Source: a virus. Taken from it: DNA of 24,200 nt. The stretch lies in IMG/VR virus record IMGVR_UViG_3300022919_000012, positions 1 to 24,200 of that record; one strand, given 5' to 3'. Positions 8,753 through 20,927 of this stretch are shown one piece after another. Made by a program: the position numbers and the translations under genes. The notes under the pieces are model-generated. The model worked only from the letters and a program-made list of their open reading frames with translations, did not search any database and was not told the origin of the DNA. Position 1 is the stretch's first letter; every line of letters starts with the position of its first letter.

Positions 8753-9181
8753 ATGGATGGACTAATCACTTACAAAGTAACTTTTAAGGAAACCTCTGAT
8801 GAATGGCTTTTTCAATATAGAGAAAGCGATGGTGTTATTTATAGCTTTTTCAATCTTAAAGGAAAACGAATACTCAAGCTTTTTACAAACGTGCAGTTTC
8901 CTGGTACCAGAACTGAAATGGAAAACTGGACAAAATACAAACAACTTGTTACTATTGAAATGGTTTTAGATGATTATTCTTTTGAAGCCTTTTGGAAAGC
9001 ATATAGTTTAAAGGTTAAAAAAGAACATTCGGAAAAGGCTTTTGAAAAATTGAATTTAGTAGATAAAATTAAATGTTTCAATGGCCTGAAAAAGTATGAT
9101 GAATTTCTTACGAAGACCTCTCAAGCAAAAGCTCATATGGTAACATGGATTAATCAAAAGAGGTTTAATGATGAATACTAA
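8753..9181 (+). CDS. Protein with phage replication (helicase-loader type) C-terminal domain
   Basis: Residues 78-142 follow the recurring C-terminal module of phage replication proteins and helicase loaders: 'F-FWkaYp-Kv-K--A-kaf-kl' appears as FEAFWKAYSLKVKKEHSEKAFEKL. The typical ending '-k-h--tWln-erw-dE' appears as AKAHMVTWINQKRFNDEY. The first ~75 residues are not recognised and look beta-rich. In other phages this module is fused to a DNA-binding N-terminal domain and helps recruit the replicative helicase. Here it closes the early operon, so it could link transposition to host replisome assembly (inference). Confidence 0.6.
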   Translation: MDGLITYKVTFKETSDEWLFQYRESDGVIYSFFNLKGKRILKLFTNVQFPGTRTEMENWTKYKQLVTIEMVLDDYSFEAFWKAYSLKVKKEHSEKAFEKLNLVDKIKCFNGLKKYDEFLTKTSQAKAHMVTWINQKRFNDEY

Positions 9182-9204
9182 TTATTTGGAAGAATTAAAA
9201 GTTT

Positions 9205-10035
9205 CTAATCTTCTTTAAAGTCGTTAATGGTAGCTAAAATTTTTTTAATATTATGCGTAATCACATTTATCCTTGTTCCTATGATGTAACCGCTATTTTG
9301 TAAAGACCAGTCGGTCATTATAGCGGTTAATTTCGGCTCCATGTAGCCTGAAGAAATGTTAGTTGGGTCAATAAACCACATACCACAACCACTAATTCCG
9401 TGTAAGTCGGGTCCATTGGAAATTACCTTAGCCTTTAAGCTGAAAGAATTATGTTTATCGTATGATGTTATAACATTGTAATCCGGATGGCGGTCAAAAT
9501 TAAAATACTGCTCTTGCAGTAGCGGAGTGGTCACATGCATAAAAGGAACGCTTTGAAAATAACTTTTATCATATTTCTCTTTAGAAGTGGTGGAAGGATA
9601 ACCGTAGAAAACATAAGGTTCTTGATTAAAAAACTTATGTTCAATAGCAAGATTGTCTTCCTTTAGAAATGTATAATGTTTTGATATTTCTTCAACGCTT
9701 TCTGTATCTAGCAACAGAAAAGCAATGTCGATAGTATCCTTATCCCTTAAAGCAGTGGTGTTTTTGTATATAGTTCCTCCTGGCTGAAACATGATATTAG
9801 AAAGCTGTTCTAGAGCGATTCTGGGCTGAATATTTTTTTTATGGAAATGATCAATAACATGAGCAGCTGAAAGAAGGAAATAATTATTCTGAAATTGTAT
9901 CAATACACCAGTACCAATTAATTTTAATTCGATTTCTTCTTTCTTATTCCACATAGTATCATCCAAGAGCATGACAGTACAATTCTTAATAATAGTAGTT
10001 ACATTAGAGAGGTGTTGATTCCAAAAATCTTCCAT
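9205..10035 (-). CDS. Trypsin-like serine protease
   Basis: The chymotrypsin-fold triad can be read in order: His in FLLSAAHV (H59), Asp in TIDIAFLLLD (D103) and Ser in HGISGCGMW (S215, equivalent to the GxSGG motif). GTGVLIQF near residue 41 matches the strand that precedes the catalytic His in S1 proteases. There is no signal peptide or membrane helix, so it probably acts in the cytoplasm. It is transcribed against the early operon and divergently from the membrane-protein genes at 10182-11796. This protease is not a standard Mu-like component, so it is probably accessory cargo; substrates are unknown. Involvement in host defence or superinfection exclusion is possible but unproven. Confidence 0.75.
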   Translation of the reverse strand: MEDFWNQHLSNVTTIIKNCTVMLLDDTMWNKKEEIELKLIGTGVLIQFQNNYFLLSAAHVIDHFHKKNIQPRIALEQLSNIMFQPGGTIYKNTTALRDKDTIDIAFLLLDTESVEEISKHYTFLKEDNLAIEHKFFNQEPYVFYGYPSTTSKEKYDKSYFQSVPFMHVTTPLLQEQYFNFDRHPDYNVITSYDKHNSFSLKAKVISNGPDLHGISGCGMWFIDPTNISSGYMEPKLTAIMTDWSLQNSGYIIGTRINVITHNIKKILATINDFKED

Positions 10036-10168
10036 ATTAATATTTTAGCAGGATTATCTGCGATATCACGTAAAATTAAGTAAAAAGCGCTCCCTTTTTG
10101 AAACCTGAAAAAAAAAATATAATAATGAAACATACGGTTTTCCGTAAAATCTAGAAACATTAACTGTA

Positions 10169-10176
10169 TACCTTTG
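10169..10176 (+). promoter_or_regulatory. -7 promoter element for accessory genes
   Basis: TACCTTTG exactly matches TAnnTTTG. No good -33 TTTG is seen at the usual distance. The ATG of the next gene follows only 5 bases later, so a transcript from here would be leaderless or nearly so. Confidence 0.45.
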
Positions 10177-10181
10177 AAAAT

Positions 10182-10340
10182 ATGCCAGATAAATATCAAC
10201 AAATAAGAGATTTCCATGAAATTGAGTTAGCTAAACTCCATACTAAAATTGATGATGATTACAAGCAAAAAATTCGTAATTTGTACATTAGTGTTTTTGT
10301 TAGTGGAGCAGTACTTATTTTTCTTATGTTTGTTACATAA
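10182..10340 (+). CDS. Small membrane protein, 52 residues
   Basis: Residues 1-32 are charged and helical (MPDKYQQIRDFHEIELAKLH...). Residues 33-51 (NLYISVFVSGAVLIFLMFV) form one membrane helix that ends at the C terminus, a tail-anchored layout. It begins 5 bases after a -7 promoter box and ends 9 bases before the larger membrane protein, so the two are probably co-expressed. No family is recognised. Confidence 0.6.
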   Translation: MPDKYQQIRDFHEIELAKLHTKIDDDYKQKIRNLYISVFVSGAVLIFLMFVT

Positions 10341-10349
10341 AACTAAACT

Positions 10350-11300
10350 ATGCAAACCATAACTGATTTATTTCACAGTCTTATTGAAACATCAAAAGAG
10401 CGTATAAAAACTCCTATAACAGGAGCTTTTATATGCTCTTTTTTTGCTTACAATTGGAGACCGTTTTTCATACTTTTATTCTCTGACTCTAAAATTGAGA
10501 ATAAGATTGAAATTATAAGTAGAGATTATTTTAAGGATTATCATTATTATGTTGGTGTGCCGTTTGCAATTGCTCTTGGATATACACTTTTGGTCCCGTT
10601 ATTCATGGTGGGAATAGAAAAATGTCTGACACCAGCTAAAAAAATGAGAATCAAAACTATTTACGATTCAAGAATTTTTACAACTAGACAGAAAGTTACA
10701 TTAGCAACTGAAATTACTAAACTCAGAAATGCAGAATCAGGAAACAAGGAAATTGAAGATTTATTAGCGCAAATAGAATCATTTAGAGAGCAAAGTAATT
10801 TACAACAAGACAGTCTTAAGCAGATTAATGAGTCACACAATGCTACAGTTGAAGGACTCAACAGTAGTTTAAAAACATCCAAAGATTCAATCATCGCAAA
10901 GGATTTGGAAATTAATAGATTAACTAAGTTGCTTAATCTACAAAGAGACAATGCGGCTGATCTTACTGTCGCCGTTGATTTTGAATTTGATAAAATCATT
11001 AAGAACATATTGGATAACAATCCCAAAGTTTCAGCAGAACTAGTACTTAATGCTTCACGTGTTGCTAAAACCCTTTCGGTCAAGGACTTTATGTTTTTAC
11101 AGGCACTCAAACTCAATGGCAAGAATGAAATATTGCTTGATGCATCATACGATTTTATACGGCTAGAAGGTTTAGTGGAGAGTGGAGTAATATCCCGTAG
11201 GCAGGTTAATAATAAAACTTCATACGTGTTTTCTGAACTTGGAAGTTTAATTTATGAGGTACTTCTAAACGAAAAGATAGAACAAAAAAATAAATTTTAA
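10350..11300 (+). CDS. Membrane-anchored coiled-coil protein with C-terminal winged-helix-like region
   Basis: Two membrane helices (about residues 24-44 and 67-89) are followed by a long charged coiled coil (about 115-205) and a folded C-terminal region (about 210-305). There EGLVESGVISRRQVNNKTSYVFSE looks like the wing of a winged helix. The start 'KERIKTPITGAFICSFFAYNWRP' resembles a group of bacterial membrane proteins of unknown function ('ER-K-P--G-Fi--w---NW-P'). It is followed after 1 base by the secreted-protein gene. The design suggests signalling or sensing at the inner membrane, for example exclusion of other phages, but this is inference. Confidence 0.65.
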   Translation: MQTITDLFHSLIETSKERIKTPITGAFICSFFAYNWRPFFILLFSDSKIENKIEIISRDYFKDYHYYVGVPFAIALGYTLLVPLFMVGIEKCLTPAKKMRIKTIYDSRIFTTRQKVTLATEITKLRNAESGNKEIEDLLAQIESFREQSNLQQDSLKQINESHNATVEGLNSSLKTSKDSIIAKDLEINRLTKLLNLQRDNAADLTVAVDFEFDKIIKNILDNNPKVSAELVLNASRVAKTLSVKDFMFLQALKLNGKNEILLDASYDFIRLEGLVESGVISRRQVNNKTSYVFSELGSLIYEVLLNEKIEQKNKF

Positions 11301-11301
11301 T

Positions 11302-11796
11302 ATGAAAACAATAACGATTCTAGTGCTTTTTCTAAGTTTTTCAATTGTGAAAGCTCAAGATTTTGCTACCATAAATAATATGCAAAGCAATTCAATTTCT
11401 AATCTAAAAATCATTGCAAATAGATTAGTAAATCTTACGGATAAAAAATTCGAATTTTATAAAGAGAAGGAAACTCCAGACAATTACATATTGGTTTATC
11501 TACCAATAGGTTTGAGTTTAGCACAAAAGGAAGAGTCAAGAGTAAATCGTTACGAAAATGGAATCATTTTCAAATTAGCAAAAACAAATCAGGGTAGCTA
11601 CAAATTGAAAGAATTTTTTGCAGAGCCGAAAATAATGTTTGCTATCGTAAATTCTGTCTTTTATCCTGGCGCAACTCAAAGTGACTTTCTGGGCACTTCG
11701 AAGTATCGAGACTACACTGATAGTGCTAAAGGGTACAATTTCCATTTTTATTCTGGAGATTCTGAGAAAAGTAACTACAGATTTTACTCGAATTAA
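11302..11796 (+). CDS. Secreted or periplasmic protein, 164 residues
   Basis: Residues 1-18 form a clear Sec signal peptide (MKTITILVLFLSFSIVKA, cleavage before QD). There is no lipobox cysteine, so the mature protein of about 146 residues is probably soluble in the periplasm or exported. The mature part is mixed alpha/beta with many Lys, Asn, Tyr and Phe residues and no family I recognise. It is co-directional with and 1 base from the membrane coiled-coil gene, and a strong terminator follows. It is therefore the last gene of the accessory transcript. Confidence 0.65.
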   Translation: MKTITILVLFLSFSIVKAQDFATINNMQSNSISNLKIIANRLVNLTDKKFEFYKEKETPDNYILVYLPIGLSLAQKEESRVNRYENGIIFKLAKTNQGSYKLKEFFAEPKIMFAIVNSVFYPGATQSDFLGTSKYRDYTDSAKGYNFHFYSGDSEKSNYRFYSN

Positions 11797-11798
11797 AT

Positions 11799-11828
11799 AA
11801 AAAAAAACCGCTAGATTAGCGGTTTTTT
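11799..11828. terminator. Bidirectional terminator after accessory genes
   Basis: CCGCTA-GAT-TAGCGG is a perfect GC-containing hairpin flanked by an A-tract on the left and a T-tract on the right. It could therefore act on both strands. It separates the accessory cassette from the promoter of the next rightward gene. Confidence 0.85.
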
Positions 11829-11865
11829 TTATGTTTATATTTTATTTTGAAAGGAAAAAACTTGA

Positions 11866-11897
11866 TTTGGTTATAAAGTGTAACTTATTTATATTTG
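11866..11897 (+). promoter_or_regulatory. Bacteroidota promoter resembling the early promoter
   Basis: TTTG (11866-11869), a 20-base spacer, then TATATTTG (11890-11897): a full match to the Bacteroidota sigma-A consensus. Bases 11885-11901 match 1360-1376 of the early promoter in 16 of 17 positions, including the TTAT and TTTGTCAC parts. The ATG follows the -7 box by 4 bases. Shared control by the repressor or the Ner-like protein is a natural inference. Confidence 0.7.
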
Positions 11898-11901
11898 TCA
11901 C

Positions 11902-12177
11902 ATGTCAGTAACCTTAAACCGAAGTCTTGGAGTACAGCGTAATAAACTATTGCGTTACAAGCTTATTAAAGAACTGTATCAAAAAAGCGTTCAGGAACAT
12001 CCTTATACTCCGACAACAAAAATATTGGAAATCTACATAGTTCCAATATATCCAATTTCCCGAACTACCTTATATGAAATTCTTTGCACTTCAGTTGCAA
12101 CCGAACTTAAAGAAGTTGAAGCTGCCATTGAAAAGCAGCGTGAATTAAAAGCGTCTCAAATTCGTTTATTCGATTAG
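11902..12177 (+). CDS. Small protein, candidate DNA-binding regulator
   Basis: A 91-residue basic protein. The segment TTKILEIYIVPIYPISRTTLYEILC (residues 33-57) reads like a helix-turn-helix, with SRTTLYEIL as recognition helix. A charged helix closes the protein (VATELKEVEAAIEKQRELKASQIRLF). It stands alone, with its own consensus promoter that copies the early promoter, and its end overlaps the converging tail-terminator gene by 4 bases. In Mu the middle/late regulators Mor and C lie between early and late genes, which is where this gene sits. A late-gene activator role is inferred from position only. No second start codon exists near the N terminus, so the ATG next to the promoter is probably real. 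Confidence 0.6.
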   Translation: MSVTLNRSLGVQRNKLLRYKLIKELYQKSVQEHPYTPTTKILEIYIVPIYPISRTTLYEILCTSVATELKEVEAAIEKQRELKASQIRLFD

Positions 12178-13208: not shown

Positions 13209-13487
13209 ATGGAAACAATTTTTGACTATTCACCAACAGACCAGGAACTGATCGGCATTCGCTTCGATGCCTTTTCCTTATGTCTAAAATTTGGTATAGA
13301 CACAGAAAAAGAGCTCACTCCGGAGCTTTACAAAGAACTTGTTTCACAAGAAAATGCTTTCTATGATCTTGCTGTTTTATATGAGATTAGAAACGATCAG
13401 GTTAAAGCAGATCAGTATTGGAAAAAACTGCCTAAAGAACTTCAATCTGATGGCTTAGGTTTTGACTGCATCGACATAGCTATTTAG
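13209..13487 (+). CDS. Small acidic protein convergent with MuF, candidate immunity or lysogenic gene
   Basis: A 92-residue helical protein, strongly acidic (19 Asp/Glu against 9 Lys/Arg by my count), the only rightward gene in a 6.6-kb leftward cluster. Its end overlaps the 3' end of the MuF gene by 8 bases. The part 'FYDLAVLYEIRNDQVKADQYWKKL' (51-74) resembles a single TPR/Sel1 unit. It has its own consensus promoter and no other likely start, so the mRNA would be close to leaderless. Small size, acidity, independent expression and adjacency to a MuF protein with an HExxH domain fit an immunity protein. That function is an inference; no immunity family is recognised. Confidence 0.65.
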   Translation: METIFDYSPTDQELIGIRFDAFSLCLKFGIDTEKELTPELYKELVSQENAFYDLAVLYEIRNDQVKADQYWKKLPKELQSDGLGFDCIDIAI

Positions 13488-14991
13488 TGTTTTCATTAAA
13501 ATACTCTGTTACTTTAGTACCAATCGAGCTGTAATCTTCCATTAAAAACGGCATTAAATCTTTTGCAGCTTTAATTTCATCGATCTTTCTGCTTTTTAGA
13601 TTTGCTCTAAATTCAGTAATCCATCCTTTATATCCATATCCGTTATCGAGAATCTCTTTTTGGTGTGATGCTTGACCTCCTAATTTTTTAATAAATTCAG
13701 GATAAGTATGTCGGGCGCAAAATTGATTTACTGTCTCCATATTTTTGGTTCCGATAGTACTTAAATTTTTAGGTGCTGTTTTCGTTTTTGCATGTAAAAT
13801 TTCATGCCACAAACTTTCAAATGAATATTCCTGGTTAAAGGTCATTTTCTTACCGCTTTTAATAGCTCCTAATCCTGCTCTGAACTCCTCTAATGGAGTA
13901 AATTTAATACTTGAAAACTCATAACTGCTTAATGTAATTTTAGAACCTCCAACCCATTCGCCGGTTCGTGGACTGTATGACATCGAGTGCTGCATCATGT
14001 AAGAAGTAGATTTTAAAAATTTCACATCTTCCAAACCTCTTCTGAAATCTTCTGGAGATAACTCCGCATACTTTGTCAGAACAGTCTTTATTTCTTTGTT
14101 TGTCGGTAAATCTCCTTTTATGTAATCTGATAAATTCAGAGCATTAACAGGTTTAATTGTTTGCTCGACAACGTCTTTTGCTCCTTTTACTTTTCCATAC
14201 GGATGCGCTGGAGGAAACACCACTTTTTGCGCTCCGGGATTAAACCTGAAAATTTCAAGTCTGTTCTTGCCATCTTTTCCAACTTCAGTTGTAGCCTTTT
14301 CACCTGATTTAACTGCAATGTCAGAATCACTTACATTGTATTTGCCTTTGAGAACCTCCACTGCAACGCATCGGCACCGCCATCCATTAGGCGGATAGTA
14401 TAAGCTCCAAAATGGATCTTCTTTTGGCAGGGTTATATCATGCAAAACCTGATGCGAAGCTCTTACACGTTCATCCTGAGCAGTTCTGTATTGTAAATTG
14501 TAGCGGTCACCAAGATTAGACCATTGTGCAGCTGCTTGAGAACTTGCAACTGCAAATTCATACTCTGCCTCGAGGTAATTCTGATTATAATTAATATTCA
14601 GTTTATCGAAATCTTTACTTACTTCAGAAAATGGTTTAAGTCTTCCATCATTATTTAGTAATAATTTTGAAGCTTCGAACAATTGTGCATTTGCTTTGAG
14701 TGAACCAAACAACCGGGCATTGTTTTGCAATTCATTTCTCATAACCTCTGGCATGTCGTTATCTTTGATGGCGAAATCAAAAACATCAAAAGTCGATTGT
14801 ATTAGTTTTTGATATGGCTTTTCTTTTTTTAAGTCTTCAGGCGAATAACTTCCTTTTTTGTGAAGGTGTTTAAATGCCTTTTCACCATCTTTTAAAAGCT
14901 GTTTAAAATTATCAGAAATACCCAAATTTACAACTGTAGAACTACGCTTGCAGTCATCGCATGTGCAGTTGTATAAATTTTCTAATCTCAA
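13480..14991 (-). CDS. MuF-type minor head protein with C-terminal HExxH domain
   Basis: Residues 1-230 form the MuF/SPP1-gp7 head morphogenesis domain. It has the family's core 'YNLQYRTAQDERVRASHQ' (163-180) and 'WSLYYPPNGWRCRC' (195-208), plus an N-terminal CTCDDC cluster. MuF proteins sit at the portal and can be ejected with DNA. After a linker (about 215-300), the C-terminal ~200 residues are extra compared with minimal MuF proteins. They contain SLWHEILHAKTK with H396-E397-I-L-H400, the zinc-metallopeptidase signature; a Glu or His further on (for example in METVNQFCARHTY) could be the third ligand. MuF fusions to toxin domains are known in temperate phages, so this may be an injected effector. 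A hairpin precedes the gene. Confidence 0.85.
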   Translation of the reverse strand: MRLENLYNCTCDDCKRSSTVVNLGISDNFKQLLKDGEKAFKHLHKKGSYSPEDLKKEKPYQKLIQSTFDVFDFAIKDNDMPEVMRNELQNNARLFGSLKANAQLFEASKLLLNNDGRLKPFSEVSKDFDKLNINYNQNYLEAEYEFAVASSQAAAQWSNLGDRYNLQYRTAQDERVRASHQVLHDITLPKEDPFWSLYYPPNGWRCRCVAVEVLKGKYNVSDSDIAVKSGEKATTEVGKDGKNRLEIFRFNPGAQKVVFPPAHPYGKVKGAKDVVEQTIKPVNALNLSDYIKGDLPTNKEIKTVLTKYAELSPEDFRRGLEDVKFLKSTSYMMQHSMSYSPRTGEWVGGSKITLSSYEFSSIKFTPLEEFRAGLGAIKSGKKMTFNQEYSFESLWHEILHAKTKTAPKNLSTIGTKNMETVNQFCARHTYPEFIKKLGGQASHQKEILDNGYGYKGWITEFRANLKSRKIDEIKAAKDLMPFLMEDYSSIGTKVTEYFNENTK

Positions 14992-16256: not shown

Positions 16257-16718
16257 TTAATATTCGTGATTAAATTTTTCTCTAGACCCCATTTCGAAAG
16301 GCTGTTTTTCTCCTGCTGTCATGTCGTCACGCACAAGTTGCGGCAGGGTTGAAACATTTATTTTTCCTTCAGCTACCTTAGTAAACCAAGATACAGCCCT
16401 ATCGTATCTGTCTTTTGCTTTTTCGTAGATAAAATCAGCATTGCAGAGTTCTGCTAAGTACCATTTTGCCATTGTGTTGCATTGTCGTACAACCAACGAA
16501 TGGCGGTCATTTCCGGTTTTGTTAAAAATGTTTTCCACGTCATATAACAATCTCCCATCGAGCCATTTTTTATTGTCAGTATTAGGCGTTAGATAGCTTC
16601 TAGCCTCTTCAATGGCCGCATTACATGCTTGATCTACTTTACCATCATCACCGTCAGTAATTTGGTCTATTTGGTACTCATATATGCTGGTTCCTAAATC
16701 TTCTTTGTCTAAAAACAT
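16257..16718 (-). CDS. gp36-like protein (DUF1320), head-tail connector
   Basis: Fits the DUF1320/gp36 family of Mu-like phages, probably an adaptor on the portal. It starts with 'MFLDKEDLGTSIYEYQIDQIT', the family's usual opening. The helix 'VDQACNAAIEEARSYL' (28-43) follows, then 'RHSLVVRQCNTMAKWYLAELCN' and 'YDRAVSWFTKVAEGKI', the closing helix of the family. Length 153 is typical. It lies 26 bases from TerL and 9 bases from the portal gene in the same transcript. In Mu, gp36 follows the capsid gene, so the position here is a rearrangement. Confidence 0.82.
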   Translation of the reverse strand: MFLDKEDLGTSIYEYQIDQITDGDDGKVDQACNAAIEEARSYLTPNTDNKKWLDGRLLYDVENIFNKTGNDRHSLVVRQCNTMAKWYLAELCNADFIYEKAKDRYDRAVSWFTKVAEGKINVSTLPQLVRDDMTAGEKQPFEMGSREKFNHEY

Positions 16719-16744
16719 ATTAATGTTGTATTATGATTGATTTA

Positions 16745-18271
16745 TTAATATTTACGATTGTTAATGTGGCCGACCACATACTCGGAGTTCTCTTTTGTTG
16801 CAATATTTTGAATAATCCAAACACCTCCTTCTAATCCATCGGGACCGTCCAGCATTTTAGAGTTCGGTGCGACTCCGACAAATTCCTCCTCCATTGTCAG
16901 CATGTTAGGATTTTCCTTTTCATCGATATTGAAATAAAGACAGCCTTGTTTATATATCGGCTCTAAAGTTCCTTCAATCCTATTATATTTATCTCCTTTA
17001 TCTCTTTTGTCAAGCGACATAAACAACGGAATTCTTCTAAGTATTTTTCCAACGGACTTAACCAAAGGTTTTAGTACCTGTTCCCAAAAAGGGTCTTGCA
17101 GTGAATTGTTTTCAATCCAATTTTTGAAAGTATCTATTTTTCTTTCTTTCACCCAGTCATGCGCGTGATAAAGGTTATTGACAAAAGTTCGCTGATTCAT
17201 ATTGTCAAGCCAGACTTTATACAAATAGAAATTACCGCCTTTATATCCAATTACTCCAGTAAATTTTCTAGAGCTGTTTTTATTGTCTTTATTACTTGTT
17301 GCCGGGTCAGAATAAATTAAAACATGCTCACAGCTTTTAAGCGTCGGGCATTTGGCCCAATGTACTTTTTTGAAAAGCTTTCCTATTCTAACCGGATTAT
17401 TATAATACTCCTTTTGAATGGAGCTCGTGGTCATTGTTCTAAAAGCTAGATTAATAAGTTCTTCAGTATTTCTTTGCGGCCACGTAGAAAAACCGTTTTT
17501 GTCCCTGATATTTACAATATCATGCACATTGGCTTTCTTTGCCATTTCCGAAATACAGCAGTACTTTGCTATAATATTACCACAGGCGATAATTAGTAAA
17601 GGCACAGAAATGGAACGAGTTGGAATTAAAGCCTGTTCAATCCACTCGTATTTTTTCTGAATTGTCTCAGGATTGTTACAGTCAATGTCCGTATCAATAT
17701 CATCGATTAAAATCAAGTCCGGGCGCGCTGCATCATTTCTAGTTCCACGAGGGGATTGACCCGCGCCTACGGCTCTAAAAGAAACTCCTTTCCTTGTTGT
17801 AAAGTCTCCTTCTTCCCAACCGCTTAATGCTCTCTGTTCACCGTAATCATTCTTTAAACGATCATTGACTTCAATTATAGTTTTATAAGGCTTTAAAAGC
17901 CTTTCGGCATCATCGTAAGTCGCAGAAACAAGGATAACGGTTTTCTTTTTACCTGTCATTGTCAGATAAAGAACATCCATCATAGTTCGACCCGACTTTG
18001 ATAAGTCACGCGCCCAGGAACGAACTTCGTACCACTCAGGATTAACCAGAACACGTTTGGTTGCTTTTATATGAAAAGGTGCCGGTTCTGAAGTGTAAAA
18101 GTTTGGAAAATAGTATTTATACCACTCCTCTGGATGGTCTTCAAGGTGAGCAATCCTTTTTAATTTTTCAGACGCATTTTCATTCAGATCAACCGGAGTA
18201 GCCCGATATTGATTTACAACAAAATCCTCCCATCCGATTAACTTGTTTTTATCATTTCTACTTAGTGCCAT
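16745..18271 (-). CDS. Large terminase subunit (TerL, Mu gp28-like)
   Basis: ATP-driven DNA packaging motor and nuclease. The ATPase half has a degenerate Walker A (ARDLSKSGRT, 87-96), as is usual in TerL, the coupling strand 'KTVILVSATYDDAERL' (110-125) and Walker B 'PDLILIDDID' (184-193, acidic D190 D191). The nuclease half begins with 'VLIYSDPATS' (first Asp D322), followed by 'KFTGVIGYKGGNFYLYKVWLD'. The ending 'DGPDGLEGGVWII' matches the late acidic residues. At 508 residues it is full length. Its start overlaps the TerS gene by 14 bases. Confidence 0.92.
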   Translation of the reverse strand: MALSRNDKNKLIGWEDFVVNQYRATPVDLNENASEKLKRIAHLEDHPEEWYKYYFPNFYTSEPAPFHIKATKRVLVNPEWYEVRSWARDLSKSGRTMMDVLYLTMTGKKKTVILVSATYDDAERLLKPYKTIIEVNDRLKNDYGEQRALSGWEEGDFTTRKGVSFRAVGAGQSPRGTRNDAARPDLILIDDIDTDIDCNNPETIQKKYEWIEQALIPTRSISVPLLIIACGNIIAKYCCISEMAKKANVHDIVNIRDKNGFSTWPQRNTEELINLAFRTMTTSSIQKEYYNNPVRIGKLFKKVHWAKCPTLKSCEHVLIYSDPATSNKDNKNSSRKFTGVIGYKGGNFYLYKVWLDNMNQRTFVNNLYHAHDWVKERKIDTFKNWIENNSLQDPFWEQVLKPLVKSVGKILRRIPLFMSLDKRDKGDKYNRIEGTLEPIYKQGCLYFNIDEKENPNMLTMEEEFVGVAPNSKMLDGPDGLEGGVWIIQNIATKENSEYVVGHINNRKY

Positions 18272-18821
18272 CCGTCATTTTTTGTTTGATGAATGCATCG
18301 CAGTAACTTGTTAATTGATTGGCAAATTTTGAATCAATGCTTCTTATAAACAAGATTAGATTTTTAACAACAGTAATTGTTTCGCCAATATTGGTTTCAG
18401 TCTCCAGGCGTTTGATTGCGGTGGTAAGTTTTGAAATCATATCCGTATCTTTTGAATTAGGAAAATTTCCTACCAGAATGGGATAGTCTTTCGCGTTATA
18501 CGTTGGATACTCCAGTTTTTCGTCTCCAGAGCTGTCTTTTAACTTAATTGGTTTGAGCATAAAGTTGGGAATATCACGAACAACCGGACGTGTTTTTATC
18601 TCATCTAATGTCGCTTGCAACTGTCCGTACAATCCGGTCAATTGGTTGTCCTTAGTAACTAAAAGAGAAATTTTTAGTTTTTCCCAATCACCTTCCTTAA
18701 CCCATTTACTAACTGTTTTCTCAGTCACTTTTAAACGTTCTGCTATCTCTTTTTGTGAGACATCATCATTTACGAAAAGGATTTTTGCGAGGTCTTTTTC
18801 TACCTGTTTACGAGTTCCCAT
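18258..18821 (-). CDS. Small terminase subunit (TerS)
   Basis: Recognises phage DNA and controls TerL. It has an N-terminal HTH of the kind found in TerS proteins ('DVSQKEIAERLKVTEKTVSKWVKEGDWEKLK', residues 20-50). A helical middle ('NQLTGLYGQLQATLDEI') and a C-terminal helical region ('LTTAIKRLETETNIGETITVV...') probably provide oligomerisation and TerL contact. It is the first gene of the leftward late cluster and overlaps TerL by 14 bases. The identity rests on the HTH plus its place directly before TerL. Confidence 0.82.
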   Translation of the reverse strand: MGTRKQVEKDLAKILFVNDDVSQKEIAERLKVTEKTVSKWVKEGDWEKLKISLLVTKDNQLTGLYGQLQATLDEIKTRPVVRDIPNFMLKPIKLKDSSGDEKLEYPTYNAKDYPILVGNFPNSKDTDMISKLTTAIKRLETETNIGETITVVKNLILFIRSIDSKFANQLTSYCDAFIKQKMTDGTK

Positions 18822-19009
18822 ACTTTAATATTTAGGTCAAAACTCCAAATAAGCCGTCTTTAAAAAAAACACCCGTTTACTTGCTTTACAACTCTGTAGG
18901 TATTGCACACAACGTTGCCCTATTGCTTGGCTTTTAGATTCTTAATAAACCAAACCTTTTAATCTTTGTCATCTCACAAGGCAAAAACTGCCAACCAAAA
19001 ACACTTAAA
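18822..19009. promoter_or_regulatory. Divergent late control region
   Basis: This 188-base gap lies between the leftward terminase cluster and the rightward head cluster, so both late promoters should be here. I find no clean TAnnTTTG pair. The nearest is TAATCTTTG at 18960-18968, one base off in spacing and without a proper -33. CTTTTAGATT (18931) and CTTTTAATCT (18957) are similar repeats, and GGCA-AAAAC-TGCC is a small hairpin. Absence of consensus promoters would fit a need for a phage-encoded activator. Confidence 0.45.
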
Positions 19010-20002
19010 ATGCCAAGACCAGAATACTTTGTTTTTAATGATGAAAATGTGAAAAACTCTTATGGTTTTTACATCAATACATTGGGGATTAAAATGGATC
19101 GTTTCAATGACAATCCTGTCATGTTAAACAATCATATCAATAGCACTGAAAATGTTATTGGCAACTGGTCTGACCCATTGAAGGAAAACGGATTGTTAAA
19201 ACTAAAACCACATTTCGATGAAGAAAGTAATCTAGGAAAAGACGTAGCCGGAAAAGTAGATCGCGGTTTCTTAAAGGGCTGTTCAATGGGCATTATACCG
19301 GACTGGGACAGCGTGCAAAGAATCGGCGATCGCTTAATTATGATGGAATGCGAACTGGCGGAAGGAACTATTATTCCGGTACCATCCAACAAAGGAGCAA
19401 TTGCGATTTATAGTGCTGATGGTACAGAAGTTTTGAAAGCTGACGATATTAAATCCCTTTGTCTTTCAGTCAGCGAAAAGCTGAACGAAACCCCAAAAAA
19501 ATTAAACACAATTATAGATATGAACAAAATTATTTTAAGCGTAGGTGCGCTTGTAGCTTTAGGTTTTACAGACCAGCCAAAAGACGGTATTGAAGTTTCC
19601 GATGTTGAAGCAAAGGTCTTAAGTCTGTCAAAGCAGGTAACGGATTTGACGAATAAAAACAACGGACTGGAATTGGCCGCTAAAACTGCAAAAGAGGCAC
19701 AGGATGCGGCCGTAAAATTATCAGCTAATCAAAAAGTTGATCTAGCGATCACACAAGGAAAAATACCAGCCGACAAAAAGGAAGCTTTCGTACAATTGGG
19801 AATTACTTCCCCAGAAATATTGGAAACTACTTTAGCATCGATTCCTGGTAAAAAGGATTTTAGTGCTGGAATTATGATTCCGGGAGGAAACGGTGTCACT
19901 GAAATCAAAACAATGGATGAGTTTGAAAAGCTTTCCCATTCAGAAAAATTGAGCTTTAAGGACTCTAATCCTGATGCTTACAAGAAATTGTTTAACCAAT
20001 AA
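19010..20002 (+). CDS. Head maturation protease fused to scaffold (Mu gpI-like)
   Basis: Processes the prohead and scaffolds capsid assembly. The N-terminal ~160 residues form an S78/HK97-type prohead protease domain: His in MLNNHIN (H42), Ser in GFLKGCSMGI (S92), then 'MECELAEGTIIPVPSN' (around 122-137), the family's closing strand. After a linker, residues 195-240 form a coiled coil (VLSLSKQVTDLTNKNNGLEL...). The acidic C-terminal part has the look of a scaffold. It is the first gene of the rightward late cluster, 10 bases before the capsid gene. An internal ATG at 19520 may give a scaffold-only product, as gpZ does in Mu. Confidence 0.85.
   Translation: MPRPEYFVFNDENVKNSYGFYINTLGIKMDRFNDNPVMLNNHINSTENVIGNWSDPLKENGLLKLKPHFDEESNLGKDVAGKVDRGFLKGCSMGIIPDWDSVQRIGDRLIMMECELAEGTIIPVPSNKGAIAIYSADGTEVLKADDIKSLCLSVSEKLNETPKKLNTIIDMNKIILSVGALVALGFTDQPKDGIEVSDVEAKVLSLSKQVTDLTNKNNGLELAAKTAKEAQDAAVKLSANQKVDLAITQGKIPADKKEAFVQLGITSPEILETTLASIPGKKDFSAGIMIPGGNGVTEIKTMDEFEKLSHSEKLSFKDSNPDAYKKLFNQ
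19520..20002 (+). CDS. Possible nested scaffold protein (internal start)
   Basis: An in-frame ATG at residue 171 of the protease-scaffold gene follows an A/T-rich leader (attatagat), like the genuine starts in this window. It opens with MNKIILSVGALVALGFT, which reads as an independent N terminus after a low-complexity junction (ETPKKLNTIID). The product would be 160 residues comprising the coiled coil and the acidic tail. Mu makes gpZ scaffold from an internal start in gene I, so the arrangement has a direct precedent. Not proven here. Confidence 0.4.
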   Translation: MNKIILSVGALVALGFTDQPKDGIEVSDVEAKVLSLSKQVTDLTNKNNGLELAAKTAKEAQDAAVKLSANQKVDLAITQGKIPADKKEAFVQLGITSPEILETTLASIPGKKDFSAGIMIPGGNGVTEIKTMDEFEKLSHSEKLSFKDSNPDAYKKLFNQ

Positions 20003-20012
20003 TTATAATAAT

Positions 20013-20927
20013 ATGCCGGCAACATTTCCAGAAATGTGGGAGTCAAGAGTAAGAACTCTGCTCCGAGATGAGCAACTAGCTCCGTGGTTAGATGGTATTC
20101 CTGAAATTGATACTCAAGTTCTTGAGGTTGGTTCTGGAGGAGCATCTGAATCAAATATAATTCATATTCCAATTACGACTTTTAGACCAGGAGTTTTGAT
20201 TAATAATACAACATATCCATTGGCTTTGGTAGCTTATGATGATACAAGTATGACTATTCAATTGGATAAATACCAGACAAATCCAACGTCTTTAACTGAC
20301 GATCAGGCTAATGGCTCTAGTTATCCTCAAATTGACTCTGTAACTAAATCACATCGTGATGACATTACTGATTCAAAATTTGCAAAAGCAATCCATGCGC
20401 TTGCGCCACAAACAACAGTCGCGGGGGCTACGTTCGTAATCCAGTGTACTGGGGATGAAGTTACAGCAGGCGGTCGTAGAAAAATGCTTTGGAAAGATAT
20501 TGTTACAGCCAGAAGAGCAATGGATGCAACAAAATGCAAGAAAAAAGGCAGACGCTTGGTCCTGTGTTCTGATCATGAAAATGATTTATTAGAAGACAAC
20601 TCAAATAAATACGCTGACAAATTAGCTGATTATTTATCAGGAACTATCAAAGGTATGCTTGCAGGATTCGAAATGTACCAAAACATTGACAACCCTATGT
20701 ATACTGCGGCAGGTGCGAAAAAAGCTTGGGGTGCAGTTCCAGCAGGAACTGACAGAAATGCATCTGTAATATTCCATCCAGAGAATGTTGTTAAGAAAAC
20801 AGGATTGACCAAGCAATACTTTTCAGGTTCCGCAGGAGCACCAAGAACCCAGCAAAATGAATATGCCTTACGTCATTATTTCATTGCGGTTCCGGTCATG
20901 GTTAAATATGCGGGAGCAATCATTTAA
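20013..20927 (+). CDS. Major capsid protein
   Basis: Forms the icosahedral shell; the fold is expected to be HK97-like. At 304 residues it has the size of Mu gpT (305). It begins 'MPATFPEMWESRVRTLLRDEQLAPWLD'. The middle contains 'SKFAKAIHALAPQ', 'GGRRKMLWKDIVTARRAMDA' and 'RRLVLCSDHENDLL', corresponding to the P-domain helix and strand of capsid proteins. It ends 'QNEYALRHYFIAVPVMVKYAGAII', a typical closing strand pair. An earlier in-frame ATG at 19974 overlaps the scaffold gene; the start at 20013 has the better leader and spacing. The call uses position after the protease plus size; sequence identity to gpT is not obvious. Confidence 0.82.
   Translation: MPATFPEMWESRVRTLLRDEQLAPWLDGIPEIDTQVLEVGSGGASESNIIHIPITTFRPGVLINNTTYPLALVAYDDTSMTIQLDKYQTNPTSLTDDQANGSSYPQIDSVTKSHRDDITDSKFAKAIHALAPQTTVAGATFVIQCTGDEVTAGGRRKMLWKDIVTARRAMDATKCKKKGRRLVLCSDHENDLLEDNSNKYADKLADYLSGTIKGMLAGFEMYQNIDNPMYTAAGAKKAWGAVPAGTDRNASVIFHPENVVKKTGLTKQYFSGSAGAPRTQQNEYALRHYFIAVPVMVKYAGAII

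Follow-up and report, generated by a model that had tools for sequence, protein, structure and literature searches.

The end of the early operon in this Mu-like phage carries ordinary phage cargo and not a sensor–protease machine: what looked like a single module resolves into phage backbone plus a protease and a membrane gene that each occur solo. The explanation that we favor, and hold to be reasonably probable, is a cargo slot with two unrelated passengers, which entered independently and both act in lysogeny against other phages. The window, meaning the whole stretch of DNA analyzed, is a virus record of 24.2 kb whose gene set includes a repressor, a DDE transposase, a MuB-like ATPase, a DUF3164 protein and a leftward MuF/portal/terminase block. 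It belongs to a Mu-like phage of Flavobacterium-type bacteria that is distant kin of Flavobacterium phage fF4 (Winoviridae, PMC7761591). Both phages have the gene order repressor, MuA, MuB and leftward terminase/portal/MuF block, and the last early gene, a small putative lipoprotein in fF4, is a secreted protein in the window. However, identity between the two is only 22–41%, and fF4 has no protease, no coiled-coil gene and no homologous secreted gene. Matches of the MuB-like protein to Shiga toxin B models lay far under the cut-off and were discarded as spurious. Direct searches of viral contigs with the protease, coiled-coil, secreted and tail-anchored proteins returned nothing, while the terminase and profile routes were productive. 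The terminase yielded 24 related phages (L002–L025), several of them metagenomic fragments, onto which every window gene was mapped. All four open reading frames of the original prediction were recovered, one of them on the minus strand and the rest on the plus strand (Table 1).

Table 1. Features at the end of the early operon (window coordinates)
Feature	Coordinates	Strand	Description
Primosomal/replication-initiation-like early gene	8753–9181	+	Left border of cargo slot
Stand-alone trypsin-like protease	9205–10035	-	276 aa; triad H59-D103-S215; antisense to early operon; solo cargo gene
Perfect palindrome TACGGTTTTCCGTA	10133–10146	+	Divergent intergenic region; possible operator; unique in window
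Putative Bacteroidota-type -7 box TACCTTTG	10169–10176	+	5 bases before start codon of tail-anchored peptide
Tail-anchored-type peptide	10182–10340	+	52 aa; one C-terminal hydrophobic segment (ORF, hydropathy)
Coiled-coil protein	10350–11300	+	316 aa; two hydrophobic segments near the N-terminus; long coiled coil; C-terminal part variable; phrog_4780/phrog_13369
Secreted protein	11302–11796	+	164 aa; signal-like N-terminus; last gene of early operon; backbone
Intrinsic terminator	11800–11830	+	14-pair stem; ends early operon
Bacteroidota-type -7 box TATATTTG	11890–11897	+	Just before Mor-like gene; TANNTTTG conserved there
Mor-like small regulator	11902–12177	+	Right border of cargo slot; analogy to fF4 ORF14 (PMC7761591)

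Gene mapping and listing of the ORFs between the two borders in the relatives identified the stretch from the primosomal-like gene to the Mor-like gene as a cargo slot whose contents differ from relative to relative. Both borders were present in L003, L005, L007, L010 and L012, and the Mor side in L009, L016 and L025. In L003 the slot is occupied by a single large secreted gene and in L005 by a reverse transcriptase accompanied by two related genes; L007 carries a two-helix coiled-coil gene different from that of the window, L009 a BRO-type gene, and L010 and L012 small genes. Neither tblastn (protease, tail-anchored and coiled-coil proteins) nor profile HMMs (protease and coiled-coil proteins) detected any relative in L002–L025, so that the protease and the tail-anchored/coiled-coil genes have no counterpart at the same place in close relatives, the property by which morons are recognized. 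GC content was approximately 29–33% in the slot versus mostly 34–41% elsewhere in the window. Because of this dip and the absence from all 24 relatives, we assign the protease and the tail-anchored/coiled-coil pair to accessory cargo, and the true inserts span about 9185 to 11300. Codon usage did not discriminate cargo, and the cargo genes were not clearly foreign by this comparison. Being defined by position in a poorly studied phage group, the slot is a place to seek defense, exclusion and diversification genes. Its occupant in L005 (IMGVR_UViG_2609460187_000003, 16527–20084) is a diversity-generating retroelement, with a reverse transcriptase at 18054–19010 (RVT_1, E 1e-20), a template repeat at 19107–19193 and two paralogous target genes carrying variable repeats at 19295–19381 and 19676–19762; of 38 mismatches, 34 fall on template adenines.

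The original prediction drew the accessory island more widely, enclosing the secreted gene and closing the module with a terminator. The cargo genes justify the island in part and the 14-pair stem is indeed there; however, the secreted gene, the terminator and the promoter of the Mor-like gene recur in place in relatives without the cargo and are phage backbone, so the island as first drawn mixed backbone with true inserts. Homologues of the secreted gene, with 51% identity in L007 and more diverged in L012, L025, L005 and L016, occupy the position directly upstream of the Mor-like gene or close to it. A profile built from these located further homologues at that position in L013, L015, L022 and L024, none of which had gone into the profile, with E-values of 1e-9 to 3e-14. 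Because these homologues keep their position in relatives that lack the other genes, we do not count the secreted gene as cargo; in this phage group it is retained as the final gene of the early operon and evolves fast. Its structural model was good (pLDDT 83), and Foldseek found no match below E 0.04 in BFVD or 0.24 in PDB; the best fold candidate, a Bacteroides periplasmic protein at VIA Z 4.6, was not trusted. Terminator-like sites were overrepresented in the region (7 versus 1.6 expected from shuffles), and in the window as well as seven of its relatives (L003, L005, L007, L009, L010, L012 and L025) the Mor-like gene is preceded by a terminator together with the TANNTTTG box. Across the window, the box occurs as often as expected (35 seen, 35 expected); what carries meaning is solely its conserved position ahead of the Mor-like gene. 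In these eight phages it ends a few bases ahead of the Mor-like ATG (11890–11904 in the window), which suggests that the Mor-like transcript would be leaderless or nearly so.

The predicted triad of the protease proved complete, with H59, D103 and S215 invariant in nine homologues, which come from plasmids of Bacteroidota and Proteobacteria and from one phage-like contig. Hydropathy revealed no membrane segment, and the stand-alone protein is predicted to be cytoplasmic. By itself, the window protein scored 17.6 bits against Trypsin_2 (PF13365), versus a Pfam cut-off of 27.6, while eight of nine family members matched at E<0.01, the best at 5.3e-7; membership in the family rests on 19–24% identity. 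Residues 29–242 also matched phrog_36721 (E 5.8e-8), a viral protein family without assigned function. Among defense proteins, the protease matched the protease-type LmuA of Lamassu (PADLOC PDLC03855) at E 1.9e-10. All nine family members matched this homologous trypsin-like domain, which has the same triad, and one also matched a reverse-transcriptase-protease model. However, the match covers only the protease part and stops at profile position 161 (5–161 of 425), the remainder of LmuA being absent. In Hachiman, AVAST, Lamassu and DRT systems, the protease is fused to a defense enzyme and paired with an upstream MBL-fold nuclease, and the trypsin-type protease activates the neighboring MBL-fold pro-nuclease (PMC12799240); such proteases also work in CARD-NLR-like systems (PMC13236601). 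The window protease resembles these as a trypsin-like protease of mobile immune systems, whereas it is unfused, no MBL-fold nuclease was found among the neighboring proteins scanned, and no match to the SMC-like LmuB was found in the four genes or the ten early/border genes scanned. By the tested features, the protease is thus placed outside Lamassu and the nuclease–protease pairs, with a catalytic domain related to theirs.

Homologues of the protease were found at 12 loci, giving eight independent groups counting the window. Because no neighbor family other than the protease itself was common to these eight groups, we regard it as a solo gene. Two more phage-associated stand-alone proteases of this family were noted (L042:3928–4899 and L043:4734–5732), one beside an HTH/ImmA-like metallopeptidase pair and the other at the end of a tail/lysis region. 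On the Alteromonas plasmid pAltI4 (L034:1037–4687), a 358-aa MBL-fold protein and an S33 hydrolase are divergent from and adjoin the protease homologue; no other protease locus showed an MBL protein. A match in a genome contig (L001) was dismissed as a chance match, as a profile search of that genome found nothing.

Hydropathy also agreed with the other predicted proteins, revealing a single C-terminal segment in the tail-anchored peptide, two N-terminal segments in the membrane protein and a signal-like N-terminus in the secreted protein. No relative of the 52-aa peptide was found. The membrane/coiled-coil part of the 316-aa protein (residues 3–193) matched phrog_4780 at E 8.4e-16, and homologues gathered from phages, plasmids and viral contigs comprised 23 loci, which fall into about 13 groups at 80% identity. 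Common to these proteins are an N-terminal motif (R18, G25-A26, S30 and N35-W36), two hydrophobic segments and a long coiled coil, while their C-terminal parts differ. The homologues are lone phage genes, most on the strand opposite both neighbors: one lies between the terminase and portal genes in Klebsiella phage BUCT711 and Escherichia phage EC.W1-9, and another in the early region of Klebsiella phage KO-TP1. Members of phrog_4780 and phrog_13369, to which no function is assigned, occur in these phages and in the Vibrio inovirus vB_VipaK, all of other types than the window phage. Judged by homology, the 316-aa gene is a member of a widespread solo phage cargo family. The winged-helix-like end proposed for this protein was not borne out, with no Pfam or PDB match for residues 211–316 and a pLDDT of about 45–65 in the AlphaFold model; PDB matches of the coiled coil were generic coiled coils and were set aside. 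A Vibrio homologue behind prophage tail genes (L037:3959–4741) has a C-terminus with weak, sub-threshold matches to Abi_alpha and to winged-helix families such as TrmB. The protein resembles SNIPE, which has an inner-membrane anchor followed by an elongated cytoplasmic part and acts at phage DNA entry (PMC13190303), in arrangement only: SNIPE combines a single membrane helix with DUF4041 and a GIY-YIG nuclease, and no such domain was detected in the window protein.

The original prediction raised the possibility that the genes form one module, which senses infection at the membrane and signals to the protease. In such a module, the coiled-coil protein would be the sensor and either activate the protease or be its substrate, and the secreted protein would be an outer component. 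The divergent layout from one 146-bp intergenic region with a palindrome, the spacing of 1 bp between the coiled-coil and secreted genes, and the fact that bacterial immune trypsin-like proteases cut partner proteins (PMC12799240, PMC13236601) would fit such a module. However, the protease and coiled-coil families were never found together in 35 other loci (0 of 23 coiled-coil loci and 0 of 12 protease loci), an outcome that had been named beforehand as speaking against a link; since, in addition, the protease homologues share no partner, the sensor–protease reading is unsupported. With the secreted gene and the terminator being backbone as well, we consider a single module highly improbable, and the co-occurrence and neighbor evidence favors the other reading offered at the outset, two separate cargoes. 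Equally hard to credit is the view of the protease as a degenerating fragment, now functionless, of a Lamassu-type effector whose partners are gone. The match limited to the N-terminal protease part of LmuA, and the lack of an SMC or nuclease partner among the genes scanned, are what a fragment would show; nevertheless, the frame is open with the full triad, and whole-length stand-alone homologues with the same triad occur on plasmids of distant bacteria, indicating that the stand-alone form is a stable family.

The main rival is a lytic-cycle or counter-defense role, in which the slot genes are made after induction and act on the host, the protease cutting a host defense protein and the membrane protein blocking a host process. 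The slot lies inside the early region with the tail-anchored and coiled-coil genes on the early-operon strand, and the slots of relatives hold other small genes, including the reverse transcriptase with diversified genes, all of which is consistent with this role. However, the protease is antisense to the early operon, and in enterobacterial phages the coiled-coil homologues mostly stand alone and antisense, in many cases among late genes, which is the usual layout of cargo expressed in lysogeny. On balance we judge this role unlikely for the locus, while the protease in particular may serve the lytic cycle or counter-defense instead of defense. Another idea, for which we see a rather small chance, is that stand-alone homologues of Lamassu/DRT-type proteases, scattered singly on phages and plasmids, are a one-gene immune family, in which the protease itself would sense infection and kill or block without known nuclease or SMC partners. 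With this family, a single gene would suffice to test cleanly whether immune proteases of the trypsin-like type need a nuclease partner to work.

Under the favored model of two passengers, the first would be the cytoplasmic stand-alone protease on the strand opposite the early operon, and the second the small tail-anchored gene with the inner-membrane coiled-coil gene on the operon strand. Both would act during lysogeny against other phages, each without the other, and both are probably superinfection exclusion or defense genes. An infection-linked protein would activate the protease or be acted on by it, and upon infection the enzyme would cut a specific host or phage target. By positive-inside reasoning from the basic flanks, the two helices of the coiled-coil protein would anchor it in the inner membrane, leaving the coiled coil and both termini on the cytoplasmic side, and it is expected to hinder a superinfecting phage at entry or in its early steps. 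The protease and coiled-coil genes may be co-regulated, both being transcribed from the shared divergent region. The palindrome there was rejected as an operator shared with the repressor region, since the window holds no other exact copy and near-matches are at chance level; motifs of the TACCTTTG type likewise occur in the window at chance frequency.

Elsewhere in the window, in the stretch 13209–14991, the MuF-like protein has a C-terminal part with a HEILH metalloprotease-like motif. The C-terminal parts of MuF-like proteins vary among the relatives, and in several a small antisense gene follows directly, like 13209–13487 in the window. The arrangement looks like a MuF polymorphic toxin with a candidate immunity gene.
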